DNA of 64,000 bases. Source: Burkholderiales bacterium (GTDB taxonomy: Bacteria; Pseudomonadota; Gammaproteobacteria; Burkholderiales; UBA11063). The stretch's first letter is position 1. Each line of letters opens with the position of its first letter. Under the pieces are notes generated by a model. That model ran no database searches. It was given only the letters and a program-made list of their open reading frames with translations, and was not told where the DNA came from. A program made the translations under genes and the position numbers. This document shows, piece by piece, positions 40,408 to 50,314 of the stretch. Location of the stretch: the NCBI GenBank assembly GCA_019748155.1, contig JAIEPY010000022.1, forward strand, positions 16,444-80,443, given 5' to 3'.

Positions 40408-42438
40408 ATGGTGGCTATGAATATCACTCAAATCGAACACAATATCAAAAAATTACTTGAAAGCTTTAATCAAGATACATTTATCTATGACCTACTACTG
40501 GCATACGGATTACCTAAAGCATCAATCAGCCGTCTGCAAAAAGGTAGTCTGAACCTCTCTAAAAATGAAGCTGAAATACTCTGGAAAAAGAAGCTGTTTT
40601 TTAAAGTAGTAACGACAGATGAGCTCTATAGCACTACCGATAGCTATAAAAATCAACCTGATTTAATCAAACACGATCCACGATTTATTATCATAAGCGA
40701 TTATCAGCAGCTACTAGCCATCGATACTAAAACCTTTGAAACTCTTGATAGCAAAATCACTGAGCTGGATAAATGCTTTGATTTCTTTTTGCCGTGGGCG
40801 GGGATGGAAAAAGCTACTTATCAAGGTGAAAACCCTGCGGATGTTAAAGCTGCCGAAAAAATGGCAAAACTCTTTGATGAGATACGCAAAGATAATCCCA
40901 CACTCACCAGCAAAGAACAACTGCATAGTCTAAATGTATTTTTATCACGGTTACTATTCTGTTTTTTTGCCGAAGATACCGGGATATTTGAAGCCAAACA
41001 GTTCACCAATGCGCTAAAAAATTATACTCAGCCCGATGGCTCAGATTTACATGAGTACCTCGCTAAAATTTTTGTAGTAATGAACCAAAAAGAGCGCAAT
41101 GAGTTACCTGACTATATCGGCAAATTTCCCTATGTCAATGGTGGCTTATTTAGAAATAATCACCCAGTACCGCAGTTTAGCTTCAAATCACGCCAATTAC
41201 TCCTTGAAAATGGTGATCTTGATTGGTCGGTAATTAATCCTGATATATTTGGTTCAATGATGCAGGCGGTAGTGGATAGCGCACAGCGTAGTGGTCTTGG
41301 GATGCACTATACCTCGGTACCCAATATCATGAAAGTTATTGAGCCGTTATTTCTCAATGATCTCAAAGAAGAATTTGAGAAATCACAAGATAGCAAATCT
41401 AAACTAGAAAAACTACTTGCCAGAATCGCCAAGATCAAGATTTTTGACCCTGCTTGTGGTTCGGGTAACTTCTTGATTATCGCCTATAAAGAATTACGTA
41501 ATCTTGAAATAGCCATCATGCAGCGCATTGATGAGCTAACTGGTAAACCATCAATGATGTTTTCACAAATCCATTTGAGTAGTTTCTATGGGATTGAAAT
41601 CGATGATTTTTCCCATGAAATAGCCAAATTATCATTATGGCTGGCTGAACATCAGATGAATCTATGCTTTGAAAAAGAATTTGGCAGAACACTACCAGCT
41701 TTACCTCTCAAAGATAGTGGTAATATTGTCTGTGCTAATGCGTGCCGTATCAACTGGGAGACAGTTTGTCCCAAAACTCCAGATGATGAGATTTATGTGT
41801 TGGGTAATCCCCCGTATTTGGGGTTTAATGAGAGAAATAAATTAGGTAGTTCAAACGAAGATATGGAGATTGTATTTGAAGCACTAGGAAATGTTAAACG
41901 CCTAGATTATATTTCATGTTGGTTTAAATTAGCTACAGATTACATACATAACACTGTTAATAAATATGTATTTGTTTCAACAAACTCAATATGTCAAGGC
42001 GAGCAGGTTGCAATGTTATGGCCGTATATATTTCAAAATAACCAGGAGATATTTTTTGCTCACCAATCTTTTAAGTGGGGGAATAATGCAAAATTAAATG
42101 CAGGGGTTACTTGTGTAATTATTGGCATTCAAATGAAGTCTGTATCTACTAAATATATATATCAGCATAACCAATCTATTACAGTCAGCTATATAAATCC
42201 ATATTTAACAGGTAGTAGAATAACATTTATTTCACCAAGCACAAGCTCTATTTCGAACCTGCCAACAATGATACTCGGTAGTAGCCCCATTGATGGCGGG
42301 CATTTAATGTTGAGCATACATGAGGTGAATGAAATCTTACTTAATTATCCAGAAGCTAAAATATTCATTAAGTCTTACGTAGGTGGTGAAGATATATTAC
42401 ACCGCAATAAAAGATTCTGCTTATGGATTGAAGATTAA
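40408..42438 (+). pseudogene. MmeI-like/type IIL DNA (adenine) methyltransferase, N-terminal part; reading frame interrupted by TAA at 42436-42438
   Basis: 'KIFDPACGSGNFLIIAYKELR' SAM motif, 'VLGNPPYLGF' catalytic motif; ends '...RFCLWIED*' in the middle of a conserved block and resumes in the same frame. Confidence 0.8.
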
Positions 42439-42441
42439 CAA

Positions 42442-43065
42442 TTGGAAACGGCATTAAAGATTCCACCGATCAAATTAAAAATCGAAAAGTGCAAAAATTA
42501 TCGAACAAGTGGCGGACGTGATGCGAAAAAAGGGATCAATATTCCACATAGATTCTTTTATAAAAAATATCAACCAGATGAATCTTTAGTTATTCCGATG
42601 ACAAGCACCGAAAATAATCTTTATATACCAGCAAGTCACCTCACAAAAAATACAGTACCTAGCAATGGCGTATGTGTAATTTATAACCCACAAATTACGC
42701 ACTATGGAATTTTGTCTTCAAGAATGCATTATATTTGGGTAGAAAGTGTTACTGGAAAGTTAGAGTCTCGAATTAGGTACTCAGTAAACTTAGCATATAA
42801 CACCTTTCCATTCCCCAATATAAGTGAAGATCAAAAAAAACGCATAGAAATGTATGTTTTAGAAGTTTTAGATATGCGTGAACGACATTCTGAGAAAACC
42901 CTTGCTGAGCTGTACCACAAAGACAAAATGCCAAATGGCTTGCGCCAAGCTCACCATAATCTAGATATTGCGATAGAACAATGCTACCGCCTTAAACCGT
43001 TTGCCTCCGATGAAGAGCACCTCTTTACCCTCTACGAGCAAATGACTGCAAAAGGCTCTAAATAA
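42442..43065 (+). pseudogene. C-terminal (target recognition) part of the same MmeI-like methyltransferase
   Basis: Same frame as 40408..42438 after TAA; 'YIPASHL...FGILSSRMHYIWVESVTGKLESRIRYSVNLAYNTFPFP' type TRD (LSSRMH/YNTFPFP) plus C-terminal helical region. Confidence 0.8.
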
Positions 43066-44534
43066 TGCAACGTAAAGTTTTAGAGTTAGCTAAAAAATGC
43101 GATGACGTCATTATTACTAATGATCAAGATAGGATTAATAAGCAAATTGTTAGTTGTTTTGAAATGATAGATAGTCTATCCGATAAGAATGAAATAGGTT
43201 ATATCTATTATTGTATCGGTAATTTATATGCCACACTAGGCAATCATGAAATCCAAGCATTGAACTCGTTTAGGTTAGCAAAAAAAAATATTTCGACTAA
43301 TAGATTTGATCTTTATGACCTAATTTGTCAAATAGAAACAAATGAAGCTAATCAACTAGCAAAAATGGGAAGATTAATCGAAACCATTTCTATTTATTAT
43401 CAATTTATCACTCACGTCAAACCGAGTGAAGCTAAAATTGTTAGTTTGATACATGCTATCAACAATCTATGTGAGCTTGGACATATTATTAATAACAAAA
43501 ATGTTGCACAATATTATTTTGTTAAAGCAATCATACTTAAACGGCTATTATTCGATATTCAGACCTCCCCACTCATTGATACATATCAACAGCAAATAAT
43601 CAATGACTTTCTAATTAGACACCCTTTGCAAGAAAACAATGATGTTGAAGATGGAATTAGCGCATTACAAGATACAGGCTCAAAAGACTCATTTAGAAAA
43701 TCTGAGCAGCAATATCGTACATGGTGTTTAGAAAATATTTTATTCTTAAATCATATGAATGATTTAGCGTTTTCATATTTTGATGCTAAAGATACAATTA
43801 CTTTTCCAGATTATCAAATTAATTTAGCGAGCGACTGTTCATCTAAACCTCATTTTGCAATAGCTTTTGCAAATATTAAACGTGAATTTTGCTTTGCTAG
43901 ATATTTAGCATACGAAGGAATCAGCAAAAAATATCCTAAATTTGAGGGAAAAAGCTTATATCTTGCATCAGATTATTATAACTCTGACTATTCAGGTAAA
44001 ACAGAAAGGTTAAAAACATCATTTAGATTAGCTTTGGGAGTCTTAGATAAATTAATTAATCTACTGATTTCATATTTGAAATTAGATAAAGAAAAGATAA
44101 AAAAAAATAGAAGCTGTAGTAAAATAGAAATTAAACCTGAATTTTTTGAAACTTATTTAACAAACTATCTCCACACTAACAAATATATAAAAGCATTATA
44201 TTATGTTTCATGTGACCTAAACAATGGATATAACGCTCCAGAGGCTCAAACTGAAAAACTAATTGCAGAATCAAAACATTTGAAAAAATTACGAAATGAT
44301 TTAGAACATAACTGGGTACATGTATTAGAGTTTATTTTAGATGATTCAAAATGCTGTGATCAAGATTACGCAAACTATATAGAGACTGAACAATTAGAGT
44401 CAGACACCATCAAAGTATTAAAATTAGTGCGGTCATGTATTATATATTTAGTCTTTGCTGTACAACTAGAGGAAAATAACCGACAATCAGACGGCAAGTC
44501 AATTAGTTTAGAAATACCAATTTGGAGTAAATAG
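43065..44534 (+). CDS. LA2681-like HEPN-domain protein (putative RNase effector)
   Basis: 'YRTWCLENILFLNHMNDL' and 'SFRLALGVLDKLINLLISYLKL' resemble the LA2681 HEPN family; 'LRNDLEHNWVHV' fits the HEPN RX4-6H motif; N-terminal TPR-like helices; ATG overlaps the MTase stop (TAATG). Confidence 0.65.
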   Translation: MQRKVLELAKKCDDVIITNDQDRINKQIVSCFEMIDSLSDKNEIGYIYYCIGNLYATLGNHEIQALNSFRLAKKNISTNRFDLYDLICQIETNEANQLAKMGRLIETISIYYQFITHVKPSEAKIVSLIHAINNLCELGHIINNKNVAQYYFVKAIILKRLLFDIQTSPLIDTYQQQIINDFLIRHPLQENNDVEDGISALQDTGSKDSFRKSEQQYRTWCLENILFLNHMNDLAFSYFDAKDTITFPDYQINLASDCSSKPHFAIAFANIKREFCFARYLAYEGISKKYPKFEGKSLYLASDYYNSDYSGKTERLKTSFRLALGVLDKLINLLISYLKLDKEKIKKNRSCSKIEIKPEFFETYLTNYLHTNKYIKALYYVSCDLNNGYNAPEAQTEKLIAESKHLKKLRNDLEHNWVHVLEFILDDSKCCDQDYANYIETEQLESDTIKVLKLVRSCIIYLVFAVQLEENNRQSDGKSISLEIPIWSK

Positions 44535-46172
44535 ATGTTTTTTTTAAGATTAAATCAAACGCGTTGGCTAGATAAAAAACTAGCTAGGATATGCTTATTT
44601 ATTTATCATGGATGGATTACAGGTAAGAAGTCATCAATCATTTTTTTTATTACTAATTTATTTGGTCTTATATTATCTTTTATTATGATGTTTCGCTCCG
44701 ATTTATTCCTAGGTTTAGATGAAACATTTGATGGAACTCTTTGGAGTGGATTGAATAGCTTTTTAGCTGCAATCTGGACAGGGCTATTAATGTTGGCAAT
44801 ATATATCACAACTTCTTTGTACCCAGAAATACAAAAAGATTTATATGACCTAGATGATGAGACAATAGCTATACAATTGTTAGATATCAATCCTGTAACA
44901 ATGCTATTTTTTCAAACATCAATAGCACTAATATCTTTATCTATTACTTCTCTAGTTATATTTATCGAAAAATTTTCAGATGAGAGTGTAATTAAATATT
45001 ATGTATTTTTTTATTTATTCTTTATAGTAGAAGCTTTATGTATTGAGTTATTTAATATTAGAAAAGTCTTCTTTAAAAGCAAAAATTACACGTATGATCT
45101 TTTAAAGCTTGCTAAATATGATGTTCAAAATAGGAATAAGTTTATTAATGCGCTAAAAAGCTTTATGAAAAAAGACTTCAATAAAAGCATGCATAATAAA
45201 TTATCAAAAGATTACTGCTTAATCAATAAAAAATGCCTAATATCAAAAGATTATGAATTTGTACAATTAATTATAAAAGAATGTTATATTGAATTGCTGG
45301 TAGATTTTAATCGGGAAGATAACCAAAAATACATTAATTTGCTATACTTATTACAGCCTGTACAAGAAAACTTATTAGAAATAGATAACCAATATGTAAC
45401 CAATTACTTTTGTAAAATTATTGAATTAAATTTAGTTTTGGATAAGCGTAGTCAAAATCAATTAGTCGATTATTATATTCAAACAATACAACAGCTTGTA
45501 ACTTCCAAAGCTAAAGAATGGAATAAATCAGAATTTATTAAAGGAATATTAGCTACTTATAAGAGTACTAACTCATTATATCAAATAGTCTTTAGAAGTA
45601 ATATATTTGATGAGTTTATTGAACAGCAAAATTATGCTCCTGCGGCTAGTGGTTTAGCGTATGGATTTTTTCTTAATCTTGCATATAAATCAAATATGAA
45701 GTATTTCAAAAAACATGGGTTTCTATGTGCTGATTTATTAAAATTAATGATTGCGGTTGAGTTGGCTGAACCAATTGGTGACTTTATACCATTAAATTTA
45801 TCTATTAATTGCTTACCTGAAATTTTAACCAAATGTATTGAATGTGACGATTCTTTATTTGTCCATTTTGTTATTTTTGTATTCTACTATAATAAATTAT
45901 TTCCTACCCAATCAATTAAAATTGATCAATTCGTTAAAATCTTAAATAATTATAATGATTCGTATTATAACTTATTAAATGAGATGATTATACTATCTAC
46001 CAATAATGTTGAAATAATTGAGATTGAAGAAATTAGTGGTGGTAATTTCATGAATAAAGATGGACACTTCGATCTGTACAGGACTAGAGAAATGGATTCT
46101 TTTCTAGGAAGTAATTTATGTAATGATCTGAATAATAGAGATATTTTCAGAACTTGTGGCATAATTTATTGA
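44535..46172 (+). CDS. Uncharacterised protein with N-terminal transmembrane segments
   Basis: 545 aa; hydrophobic stretches 'IIFFITNLFGLILSFIMMF', 'LAAIWTGLLMLAIYITTSLY', 'LFFQTSIALISLSITSLVIFI', 'YYVFFYLFFIVEALCIELF'; ATG abuts the HEPN stop codon. Confidence 0.6.
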   Translation: MFFLRLNQTRWLDKKLARICLFIYHGWITGKKSSIIFFITNLFGLILSFIMMFRSDLFLGLDETFDGTLWSGLNSFLAAIWTGLLMLAIYITTSLYPEIQKDLYDLDDETIAIQLLDINPVTMLFFQTSIALISLSITSLVIFIEKFSDESVIKYYVFFYLFFIVEALCIELFNIRKVFFKSKNYTYDLLKLAKYDVQNRNKFINALKSFMKKDFNKSMHNKLSKDYCLINKKCLISKDYEFVQLIIKECYIELLVDFNREDNQKYINLLYLLQPVQENLLEIDNQYVTNYFCKIIELNLVLDKRSQNQLVDYYIQTIQQLVTSKAKEWNKSEFIKGILATYKSTNSLYQIVFRSNIFDEFIEQQNYAPAASGLAYGFFLNLAYKSNMKYFKKHGFLCADLLKLMIAVELAEPIGDFIPLNLSINCLPEILTKCIECDDSLFVHFVIFVFYYNKLFPTQSIKIDQFVKILNNYNDSYYNLLNEMIILSTNNVEIIEIEEISGGNFMNKDGHFDLYRTREMDSFLGSNLCNDLNNRDIFRTCGIIY

Positions 46173-46203
46173 TAATAAAACCTATTAAAGTACAAATAAA
46201 TAT

Positions 46204-46474
46204 ATGAACATTAAAAACTACATCTCCGGCGAATTACGCCAAGAAGACCTATACAAAAGCTTTGTGCCATACCTTTACTTGGGATGAGCCGCAAATTAAT
46301 ACATTGCTGGAAGATGCAACTCGTGCATTGGGTGAACTTAATGCGTTTACTATGATAGTGCCAAATGTGGATATTTTTATCTAGATGCACATCACCAAGG
46401 AAGCTAATACCTCCAGCAAGATAGATGGCACCAAGGCTGAGATTAATAATGTTTTATATTTAGACGCTATTTAG
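46204..46474 (+). pseudogene. Decayed Fic-family protein (N-terminal fragment)
   Basis: MNIKNYISGELRQEDLYKSF // frameshift // TFTWDEPQINTLLEDATRALGELNAFTMIVPNVDIFI*MHITKEANTSSKIDGTKAEINNVLY; Fic N-terminal signature with frameshift and stop. Confidence 0.75.
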
Positions 46475-46506
46475 GTATTTATAACAAAACTTAGAGTAAG
46501 CGGAGG

Positions 46507-46662
46507 TTATAATTAAAGTTAGAGCTCTAACTTTAATTATAAAAAACCTTAGTAAAATATGGAGGCTCAACTTTAACTAAGGAATCTGCTTAGTAAAGTT
46601 TAGAGGCTTAACCTTTACTAAAAAAGTCCATAGTCAACGTTAGAGTTCTAAGCTTGACTATG
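46507..46662. repeat. Array of four ~34-36 bp palindromes spaced about 40 bp centre-to-centre
   Basis: 46507-46542 perfect 36-bp palindrome ttataattaaagttagag|ctctaactttaattataa; imperfect palindromes 46547-46582, 46590-46621, 46629-46662; centres ~46524.5, 46564.5, 46605.5, 46645.5. Confidence 0.9.
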
Positions 46663-46681
46663 AAAATAAAAAGAGAAATTT

Positions 46682-48151
46682 ATGACACTCGAACGCACCA
46701 ATGAATATTTGATCAGTTTACTTCATGAGCTAATCAAACTGCCACAAGAAACTGAATGGCTCGAATTTAAAACCAATAAAGCCAAACCAACAGACATTGG
46801 CGAATACATCTCTGCATTGTCAAATTCTGCGGCGCTCAAAGGTAAATCTCATGGTTATATGATTTGGGGTATTGAGAATAATAGCCATGATATTGTTGGA
46901 ACGACCTTTGATCCATTTGCCGAAAAAATCGGCAATGAGGAGTTAATCAATTGGCTAATACAACGGTTATCACCACGAATTTATTTTTGCTTTTATAACG
47001 TAAATTATGATGGTAAGCCAGTTATAATACTTGAAATAAATAGCGCAAGTAATACACCGGTTAAATTCACGCATACAGAATTTATTCGCATCGGAAGTTA
47101 TAAAAAGCCACTCCATGATCATCCTGAAGTAGCTAAAACGTTATGGCGGATATTAGACCAAATTCCCTTTGAATTACAGCCAGCAGCAGAGCTTGTGAAC
47201 GAAGATGAAATTTTACAATTACTAGATTATCCAGCATTCTTTGATTTAATTAATTTATCATTACCAGAGAATCGCAACGGAATAATTAGCCGTTTAGCCG
47301 ATGAAAGACTAATTATTGCTAGTGCCATAACTGGAAAATGGACAATTACTAATTTAGGCGCAATTTTATTTGCTAAAAAATTAAAGCAATTTAGACATCT
47401 TGAGCGTAAATCAGTCCGGGTTATTTTGTATCGAGGGAATAGCCGTCTTGAAACAATCAAAGAATTTGAATTAAATAAAGGTTTTGCAACTGGTTTTGCT
47501 GGACTAATTGAATTTATAAATTCACAACTTCCACATAATGAAGTAATCGGTACGGCATTGCGCAAGAATGTGTTAATGTATCCTGAACTAGCGGTTCGTG
47601 AGTTAGTTGCCAATGCCATAATTCATCAAGACCTGACTATTACTGGTGCAGCTCCAATGATTGAAATATTTGTGAATAGATTAGAGATAACCAATCCTGG
47701 TGCCCCGATAGTCGATGTTATTCGCTTTTTAGACGCGCCACCGCGCAGTCGTAATGAATTAATGGCGGCTTTTATGCGTAGAATAGGTATTTGTGAAGAA
47801 CGCGGTAGCGGTATTGATAAGGTGGTTTCACAAACTGAACTATATCAGCTTCCTGCTCCGTTATTTACTGTAATTGATGATAATACTAAAGCTGTTTTAT
47901 TTTCTCATAAGACCTACAATGAAATGGAAACTCACGAGCGAGTAATGGCATGTTATTTACACTGTTGTCTTAAATTTGTTAATCATGAGTCGATGAATAA
48001 TGCTTCATTAAGAGAGCGCTTTGGAATTAAAGATGGAAATAGTGCAATAGTTTCTAGGATAATAAAACAGGCTATTGAAGATGGATTGATTCGCTTACAC
48101 GATCCATTAGCAAATCGTAAATCATGGAGATACGTGCCTTTTTGGGCTTGA
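46682..48151 (+). CDS. ATP-binding AlbA_2-domain putative regulator (COG2865-like), second copy
   Basis: 'ETEWLEFKTNKAKPTDIGEYISALSNSAALKGKSHGYMIWGIENN', 'YPELAVRELVANAIIHQDLTITG', 'CEERGSGIDKVV'. Confidence 0.85.
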   Translation: MTLERTNEYLISLLHELIKLPQETEWLEFKTNKAKPTDIGEYISALSNSAALKGKSHGYMIWGIENNSHDIVGTTFDPFAEKIGNEELINWLIQRLSPRIYFCFYNVNYDGKPVIILEINSASNTPVKFTHTEFIRIGSYKKPLHDHPEVAKTLWRILDQIPFELQPAAELVNEDEILQLLDYPAFFDLINLSLPENRNGIISRLADERLIIASAITGKWTITNLGAILFAKKLKQFRHLERKSVRVILYRGNSRLETIKEFELNKGFATGFAGLIEFINSQLPHNEVIGTALRKNVLMYPELAVRELVANAIIHQDLTITGAAPMIEIFVNRLEITNPGAPIVDVIRFLDAPPRSRNELMAAFMRRIGICEERGSGIDKVVSQTELYQLPAPLFTVIDDNTKAVLFSHKTYNEMETHERVMACYLHCCLKFVNHESMNNASLRERFGIKDGNSAIVSRIIKQAIEDGLIRLHDPLANRKSWRYVPFWA

Positions 48152-48327: not shown

Positions 48328-49218
48328 ATGAAGCAAAATACTAACATAATAGCACCTATTACCGATAATGGTTATCATTCGATTGAATCTATTGCCGAGA
48401 AGTTAAAGTATTTCAGTCGGCCATTTCCACTCGCAACAGTGGAAGAAGCAATAAAGCACAAAAATGAAATAACGCCCAAATTATTGGAGTACTTGGACTA
48501 TGCATATAAGCACCATTTAACGCTAGATGAAGATTATATGGGGCATACATATGCATTATTTTTATTGGCTGAATTTAAAGAGAAGCGTGCATTTACTACC
48601 GTTATGAATATTCTGGAGCTACCTGAAGAATCGTTGGATTTATTATTGGGAGACTCTTTGACTGAAGGTTATGCCAAGATAATTACCTCGCTATATAATG
48701 GTGATTTAGCTGCCATAAAAAGAGTTATTGAAAATCCTGATGGTTATTTATACGCAAGAACAGCAGCATTCAATAGCCTAGTTAGTTTGGTCAAAGTATC
48801 TGTTCTAGACCAAGAGGAAATAATTCAATACATAGCCTCATTATTTCTAGTGGAGAACTTTAGGTGTGATCCAACGTTAATGGCATTTTTAGTAGCTAGT
48901 GCATGTCACTTACAATCCGATAGCTTATATGCTACGATTGAAGAATTATTCAAATTAAACTTAATCGACGAAGAAATTATCAACTTAAATGATGTGGAAT
49001 ACTATAAATCTAAAATTTATAATAGCGATGTTAATGAACATAATATTGGTTATATTGATAGTGCCATTGAGAGTATGAGTTGGTGGTATTGTTTTAAGGA
49101 AGAGGAACGGTTTATTCCTCAAATTCCGGTGGCTCGTGGAGTAAAGATTGGTCGAAATGATCCTTGTCCATGTGGTAGCGGCAAAAAATATAAAAAATGC
49201 TGTGGCAGCAATTTATAA
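48328..49218 (+). CDS. DUF1186-like protein with C-terminal SEC-C motif
   Basis: C-terminus '[20 protein letters not shown]' is a canonical SEC-C zinc motif; helical repeat-like body. Confidence 0.75.
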
Positions 49219-49321
49219 CATCGTCAATGTTATCCGCTTATCTTTGACGATGAAGTAAAACGTGCTAATTTACCACGTAGTACACGGCGAATTTATTAAC
49301 CATTAACAAAATGCGATACAA

Positions 49322-50314
49322 ATGGAAACAAATAATACTCAGATACTAATTTATCAAAGTAATGATGGCAGTATAAAGCTAGATGTTCATCTTGAAGATG
49401 AAACAGTATGGCTTACACAAGAACAAATTGCGCAATTATTTGGTAAAGCTAAATCAACAATCAGTGAACATATTAAAAATATATTCAATGAAGGTGAATT
49501 GCTAAGAGACTGTTCCACACATAAGTTCGGAAATTCCGAATTTATGCAAAAACCAAGTACATACTACAATTTAGAGGTAGTTATTGCCGTTGGTTACCGT
49601 GTTAAATCCCAGCAAGGTACACAATTCAGAATTTGGGTGACACAACGCCTAAAAGAATATATCATCAAAGGCTTTGTACTTAATGATGAGCGTTTCAAAT
49701 CTGGTTCATCAATGAATTATTTTGATGAGTTACAACAACGCATTCGGGAAATACGCTTATCAGAAAGATTCTTTTACCAAAAAATAAAAGATATTTATAC
49801 CACCAGTATTGACTATAGCGCTAATGATGAAAAAACTACCCAGTTTTTCAAAATTGTACAAAATAAATTATTATGGGCGGTTAGCCAAAATACAGCTGCA
49901 GAGCTGGTTTATCGACGTGTTGATGCAACTCTTCCATTAATGGGTATGCAATCTTTTGGTAAGTTAGTTGCTCAGGCTAAAAAGTCAGACGTTAGTATTG
50001 CGAAAAATTACCTAAATGAAGATGAAATAAAATTACTCGGTTTATTGGTTGAGCAATATCTAGCCTTTGCTGAAACGATGGCGCAGCAACGTACCCCAAT
50101 GTATATGGATGATTGGATCAAACGTCTTGATGTTATTTTACAACTAAACGGACGTGAGTTATTAACTCATGCGGGTAAAATCAGCCATAACATGGCACTT
50201 GAAAAATCTAGTATTGAGTATGAAACATATAAGAAACAGCAACAACAATTAGAGTATCAAAATAATATCAATGAATTAGAACAAGATATTAAACAATTAA
50301 GCTGCGCAGTCTAA
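49322..50314 (+). CDS. RhuM family protein (virulence RhuM/COG3943-like)
   Basis: 'DETVWLTQEQIAQLFGKAKSTISEHIKNIFNEGEL', 'TYYNLEVVIAVGYRVKSQQGTQFRIWVTQRLKEYIIKGFVLNDERFK'. Confidence 0.88.
   Translation: METNNTQILIYQSNDGSIKLDVHLEDETVWLTQEQIAQLFGKAKSTISEHIKNIFNEGELLRDCSTHKFGNSEFMQKPSTYYNLEVVIAVGYRVKSQQGTQFRIWVTQRLKEYIIKGFVLNDERFKSGSSMNYFDELQQRIREIRLSERFFYQKIKDIYTTSIDYSANDEKTTQFFKIVQNKLLWAVSQNTAAELVYRRVDATLPLMGMQSFGKLVAQAKKSDVSIAKNYLNEDEIKLLGLLVEQYLAFAETMAQQRTPMYMDDWIKRLDVILQLNGRELLTHAGKISHNMALEKSSIEYETYKKQQQQLEYQNNINELEQDIKQLSCAV
49520..49546. repeat. In-frame palindrome within rhuM
   Basis: cataagttcggaa-a-ttccgaatttatg, 13 bp arms with one mismatch; encodes HKFGNSEFM. Confidence 0.8.

Follow-up and report, generated by a model that had tools for sequence, protein, structure and literature searches.

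Four regularly spaced palindromes stand directly in front of a gene for an AlbA_2 protein, raising the question of which regulator, if any, they serve. In the 64-kb window, i.e., the whole stretch of DNA analyzed here, four palindromes of 36 bp are centered at 46524.5, 46564.5, 46605.5, and 46645.5, with spacings of 40, 41, and 40 bp, exactly as the initial annotation had described. Unit 1 (46507 to 46542) is a perfect palindrome, and units 2 (46547 to 46582), 3 (46588 to 46623), and 4 (46628 to 46663) are imperfect, matching the unit model with 43.3, 48.0, and 47.1 bits, respectively; none is assigned to a strand. Palindromes of this kind appeared on average 0.09 times, and at most twice, in 2,000 mononucleotide shuffles of positions 46401 to 46700, compared with the four observed. 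The suggestion that arm sequences vary while pairing is kept was also upheld, with genuine compensatory changes across the 19 genus units known at that point (covariation score of 0.292 versus 0.163 ± 0.019, with 0 of 500 shuffles reaching 0.292). A scan of 46180 to 46760 for promoter and terminator consensus sequences gave no match above chance.

The array adjoins a phage-defense island. A degraded fifth unit, missed by the initial annotation, lies at 49218 to 49253 (CATCGTCAA...TTGACGATG; no strand assigned), where the model match was weak (16 bits, E 1.5) and where sequence comparison revealed a flank like that of the last pre-RhuM array unit in another genome of the set (G007:C31). It is found 5' of a gene encoding a RhuM-family protein (49322 to 50314, plus strand; PADLOC candidate defense PDC-S05), which adjoins the array in several genomes, and the AlbA_2 and DUF1186 genes sit between units 1 to 4 and unit 5. 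On the other side of the array, the window encodes an MmeI-type IIG restriction-modification gene as two same-frame ORFs (40408 to 43065), with a stop codon in the target-recognition domain, followed by a HEPN_LA2681 protein and a 545-aa protein with no Pfam or PADLOC match (43065 to 46172), the last two possibly forming an uncharacterized defense pair.

The initial annotation had offered a cooperative operator array autoregulated by the AlbA_2/wHTH protein itself. This 489-aa protein carries SLFN_AlbA_2 and HATPase_c_4 domains (Pfam) and is encoded at 46682 to 48151 on the plus strand. Its ATG is indeed close to the last unit, the gap being 18 bp rather than the 19 bp first given, since unit 4 ends at 46663, and proteins of the AlbA_2/HATPase type often end in a wHTH; both points favor the proposal. 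However, no array was found 5' of the AlbA_2 gene in relatives with 93% (G002), 88% (G007), 65% (G022), and 38% (G014) identity, and arrays are widespread in the absence of AlbA_2. In G002, an array does occur on the contig of the AlbA_2 ortholog, but on the opposite side of AlbA_2 and behind another Fic fragment. Because orthologs lack the array, we rejected AlbA_2 autoregulation, which we regard as extremely unlikely; on present sequence comparisons, the AlbA_2 protein is probably a neighbor of the array and not its cognate regulator. The operator part of the proposal stands as the best-supported reading, with arrays tracking Fic-wHTH proteins across phyla. In the same genome (G002:C42; L023, 6838 to 8502), a second Fic fragment (aa 33 to 92) is located directly 5' of the AlbA_2 ortholog, hence Fic and AlbA_2 were probably adjacent before Fic decayed.

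Just 5' of the array, and likewise overlooked at first, is the relic of a SoFic-type Fic gene (46204 to 46494, plus strand), in which the N-terminal part is fused to the last codons and the catalytic center is absent. Translation of 46201 to 46500 placed Fic aa 13 to 89 at 46229 to 46456, with a broken frame and an internal stop, and the C-terminal end, FRRYLGIYNKT followed by a stop, at 46459 to 46494. In a tblastn-type comparison, the relic matched an intact Fic at 79% over aa 15 to 90, with another match at 75%. No intact SoFic gene with an HPFxxGNGR motif was present at the window locus, only these N- and C-terminal relics, and the array there would be orphaned. Intact close counterparts are encoded in three genomes of the genus (G006, G008, and G023), all with the array at the Fic 3' end, and a further three (G000, G007, and G002) carry a Fic relic plus array. 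In G009 and G011, an apparent Fic end is followed by unit 1 and a truncated AlbA_2, with a junction between unit 1 and mid-AlbA_2. Single units occur next to parA beside an EcoO109I restriction-modification system or a RhuM remnant (G012, G001, and G010), as well as 5' of an hsdR-like gene in G003 and of an MmeI-type gene in G006; in G001, G010, and G012, no Fic match was detected at 1e-15. Across the epimerase to parA interval of the latter three (L080, L081, and L082), an EcoO109I-type system (G012 and G001; its restriction endonuclease is degraded in G001) is swapped for a RhuM remnant (G010), and the right border in all three is a single TAGTCAA palindrome. Beside the palindrome 5' of the hsdR-like gene, two direct repeats, TGTCGAAAATTTC..TTTTTTCACCATGAG, were observed (L087, 60 to 140; G003:C42).

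To determine the distribution of the array, we scanned 85,488 species with a degenerate pattern of one and a half units, leaving position 8 free and making no reference to Fic. This recovered 70 loci, mostly clear tandem palindromes, 36 of which had a Fic-HMM match within 300 bp and most of these within 60 bp. Palindromes beside a Fic gene with a C-terminal wHTH were thus found in 36 of 70 loci, the Fic of the window being a relic, and the Fic-linked loci belonged to Campylobacterota, Bacteroidota, Ignavibacteria, Francisella, Betaproteobacteria, and Neisseriaceae. Intact SoFic-matching Fic genes were accompanied by two to six palindromes each, with a period of 40 to 41 bp. Array placement relative to Fic is stereotyped, with the first unit overlapping the stop codon of the gene (Campylobacterota, Francisella, and several Proteobacteria) or with the array about 12 to 60 bp ahead of its start (Bacteroidota, Ignavibacteria, and others). 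In Staphylococcus massiliensis, a more distant Fic is followed after 35 bp by six units of a TAGTGAAG variant. Three-unit TAGTGAAG arrays with no Fic nearby, between an integrase-like gene and a 271-aa gene, were also observed in Allofustis seminis (L162, 5559 to 5675) and at L132 (1246 to 1356). Of the 34 non-Fic loci, about 13, from Omnitrophota and some Bacteroidales, were set aside by judgment as an apparently different element with one palindrome and another gene neighbor (L166, L170, L172, L173, L175-L178, L199, L202, L206, L215, and L229). Those from Omnitrophota (L166, L170, L172, L173, L177, L199, L206, and L229) share a conserved TAGTAAAATTTTACTA-like palindrome and TTAGTCAAG near an AMP-ligase-like gene, and this palindrome is probably an unrelated conserved operator. 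Arrays that are likely real but had no nearby Fic numbered about 20 and were found with RhuM, HsdR/HsdM, and other genes. Several pattern matches in viral contigs were dismissed as chance or single hairpins, and phage records contained no match to Fic.

The half-site reads WTAGTNAA, paired as TAGTNAA-N16-TTNACTA every 40 to 41 bp, and the linked Fic proteins of the TAGTNAA class have a wHTH helix of the form [ST]xXTA. Where X was Gln, position 8 was C in 20 of 22 half-sites (L085, L086, L163, L164, L194, and L220), with loci spanning Neisseriaceae, Campylobacterota, and Bacteroidota, i.e., three phyla. Where X was Pro, C occupied position 8 in 7 of 74 half-sites, and T or A in the remainder. 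Counted by locus, C was found in six of six Gln and one of 22 Pro loci (Fisher p = 1.9e-5), a post hoc value, as the correlation was noticed by inspection, for loci that are related by descent. Seven later loci agreed, six combining Pro with T (L231, L232, L246, L234, L343, and L233) and one Gln with C (L263, two imperfect units 41 bp apart, 5' of Fic); the flanks examined for L342, which has a Gln-like helix, and for L262 contained no array. Operator sequence and recognition helix therefore shift together, post hoc in the first set and consistently in the later loci, and the arrays beside intact SoFic genes suggest which DNA letters SoFic may read.

Palindromes of the same size class were also scored around Fic genes gathered by protein similarity alone, with palindromes disregarded. 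Around 29 Fic loci, 14 palindromes were found nearby versus 0.54 in shuffled flanks, and none within genes; around 66 dereplicated Fic loci from viral contigs, the corresponding figures were 38 versus 2.1, with three within genes. Palindrome-positive loci numbered 28 of 66, with two expected, the other 38 having no palindrome at the threshold used. The palindrome sequence varies by Fic clade and many copies lie 20 to 110 bp 5' of the start, for example, TTTCTGACATA...TATGTCAGAAA at L250, of a kind that goes with an NTAA helix, CCTTTAATA...TATTAAAGG at L292, in two copies 42 bp apart, and ATGAAATAACA...TGTTATTTCA at L308. These patterns suggest that Fic-HTH autoregulation, demonstrated for CccR, may be general.

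We consider the four palindromes a likely operator array for autorepression by a SoFic-type Fic-wHTH protein, orphaned in the window. A dimer of such a Fic would bind the units cooperatively through its C-terminal wHTH and silence its own gene, the adjoining restriction or helicase genes, or both; in intact loci, this repression would keep a toxic adenylyltransferase silent. In the window, Fic would have decayed, leaving an array, presumably inactive at present, that merely happens to precede the AlbA_2 gene. The array, its Fic linkage, the Fic relic, the differing palindromes at other Fic genes, and the helix/base correlation are all read directly from the DNA, and from them we infer binding, repression, and cooperativity. 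Several findings count against the operator reading, namely arrays without Fic, an N16 spacer versus the N26 of the CccR operator, the 38 of 66 distant Fic loci with no palindrome, and a within-unit matching of position 8 in the genus that exceeds what independent half-sites require. Furthermore, in Proteobacteria and Campylobacterota the array is found at the Fic stop codon and not at the promoter, an uncommon arrangement for autorepression, except where genes further downstream are the ones controlled. This placement may reflect such downstream control, or the array may act on the enzyme directly as a DNA effector. Developed further, the latter idea would have the array at the fic end hold several SoFic dimers in a low-toxicity deAMPylating state, serving as a DNA antitoxin whose destruction or occlusion upon phage attack frees active SoFic, a scenario we judge unlikely.

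Three further readings were weighed against autorepression by Fic. A tandem-hairpin RNA, either a type III antitoxin-like RNA as proposed initially or an mRNA stabilizer, would account for the fold z score of -6.4 and for the covarying arms within the genus. Yet, once oriented by the Fic strand, arm mismatches comprised 25 G-U versus 40 A-C pairs, the wrong direction for an RNA helix, and this lack of G-U excess disfavors a hairpin; the predicted fold pairs unit 2 with unit 3, no Rfam family was matched, arrays occur at either gene end, and the next gene varies by locus (AlbA_2, RhuM, helicase, or HsdR-like). Across taxa, symmetry beyond column composition was confined to positions 8 and 11 to 14, and weakly 3, being absent at positions 1 to 2 and 15 to 18. 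As this symmetry is largely common to all half-sites of a locus and not a property of the unit, it is no proof of a hairpin, and the pattern fits symmetric protein contact better. An RNA role is, accordingly, very unlikely, and a type III toxin-antitoxin repeat RNA was rejected on the lack of a downstream ToxN-like gene pattern, Rfam match, and G-U tolerance. Within the genus, position 8 is matched within a unit and different between units, which may stem from quasi-palindrome correction or from selection for matched half-sites. The former would suit a neutral REP/MITE-like repeat whose symmetry is maintained by such correction during replication, but array copies in the window's genome amount to a single locus and relatives carry few units each, so that the many copies of a dispersed REP/MITE repeat are lacking. 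Given also that the array keeps its place beside Fic across phyla, and given the helix/base correlation, we hold a neutral origin to be very improbable.

More can be said for the palindromes as boundaries of defense cassettes, attC-like sites that recombine and allow the intervening genes to be exchanged. The payloads that differ at one chromosomal site while sharing an end unit by parA (EcoO109I restriction-modification in G012 and G001, the RhuM remnant in G010), the AlbA_2 and DUF1186 genes enclosed by units 1 to 4 and unit 5 in the window, and the G009/G011 junction between unit 1 and mid-AlbA_2 all point this way. However, no integrase was consistently linked among the listed neighbors and, by inspection, the 36-bp units do not have the R/L box order of attC, hence an integron attC array was rejected. 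Recombination would also explain neither why arrays are linked to Fic nor why operator and helix correlate, and other Fic clades have unrelated palindromes, many 5' of the start. As the primary function, it is therefore improbable; as a side effect, the palindromes may additionally serve as break or exchange points for defense genes.

Autorepression by Fic can be compared with known systems. SoFic-type proteins combine an adenylyltransferase domain with a C-terminal winged HTH, and the array-linked Fic proteins match the anti-phage protein SoFic (3EQX and 3ZCN) over nearly its full length, e.g., that of L212 at residues 43 to 377, C-terminal region included, with 1.7e-125 against the PADLOC SoFic profile. 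The parts of the SoFic study consulted report that the protein is toxic and that cloning it is difficult unless expression is tightly repressed, which would make a strong operator worthwhile. They attribute its control to a 47-aa antitoxin and an inhibitory helix, and the paper, searched by term, returned no operator for Sofic itself (PMC12249575). As far as consulted, work on the AbiEi antitoxin describes a wHTH regulator of a toxin locus that binds several inverted repeats, although the proteins are unrelated and the regulator is a separate antitoxin, whereas here it would be the toxin itself (PMC7319586). CbFic2 of Coxiella burnetii, a class II Fic of 378 aa, binds DNA via its wHTH with nanomolar affinity, and DNA-induced dimerization switches it from AMPylation toward deAMPylation; it differs in that no specific site is known, binding having been assayed with random DNA only (PMC10628234). 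The literature we found reports no DNA target for a SoFic-type wHTH, and the arrays provide a concrete predicted operator, TAGTNAA-N16-TTNACTA every 40 to 41 bp in several phyla, together with a one-residue/one-base prediction for recognition, making the silencing of SoFic toxins directly testable. The experimental precedent is CccR of Yersinia pseudotuberculosis, which, like the array-linked Fic proteins, is a Fic of about 380 aa with a C-terminal HTH and an inverted-repeat operator near its gene. In the promoter of its own gene, CccR protects AGATAATCAT-N26-ATGATAATCT; autorepression has been demonstrated by footprint and reporter, and the dimer is required (PMC9755527). Its operator is a single promoter palindrome of 10-bp half-sites separated by N26, whereas the arrays consist of two to six tandem palindromes, with TAGTNAA half-sites separated by N16 and a period of 40 to 41 bp, and often lie at the 3' gene end.
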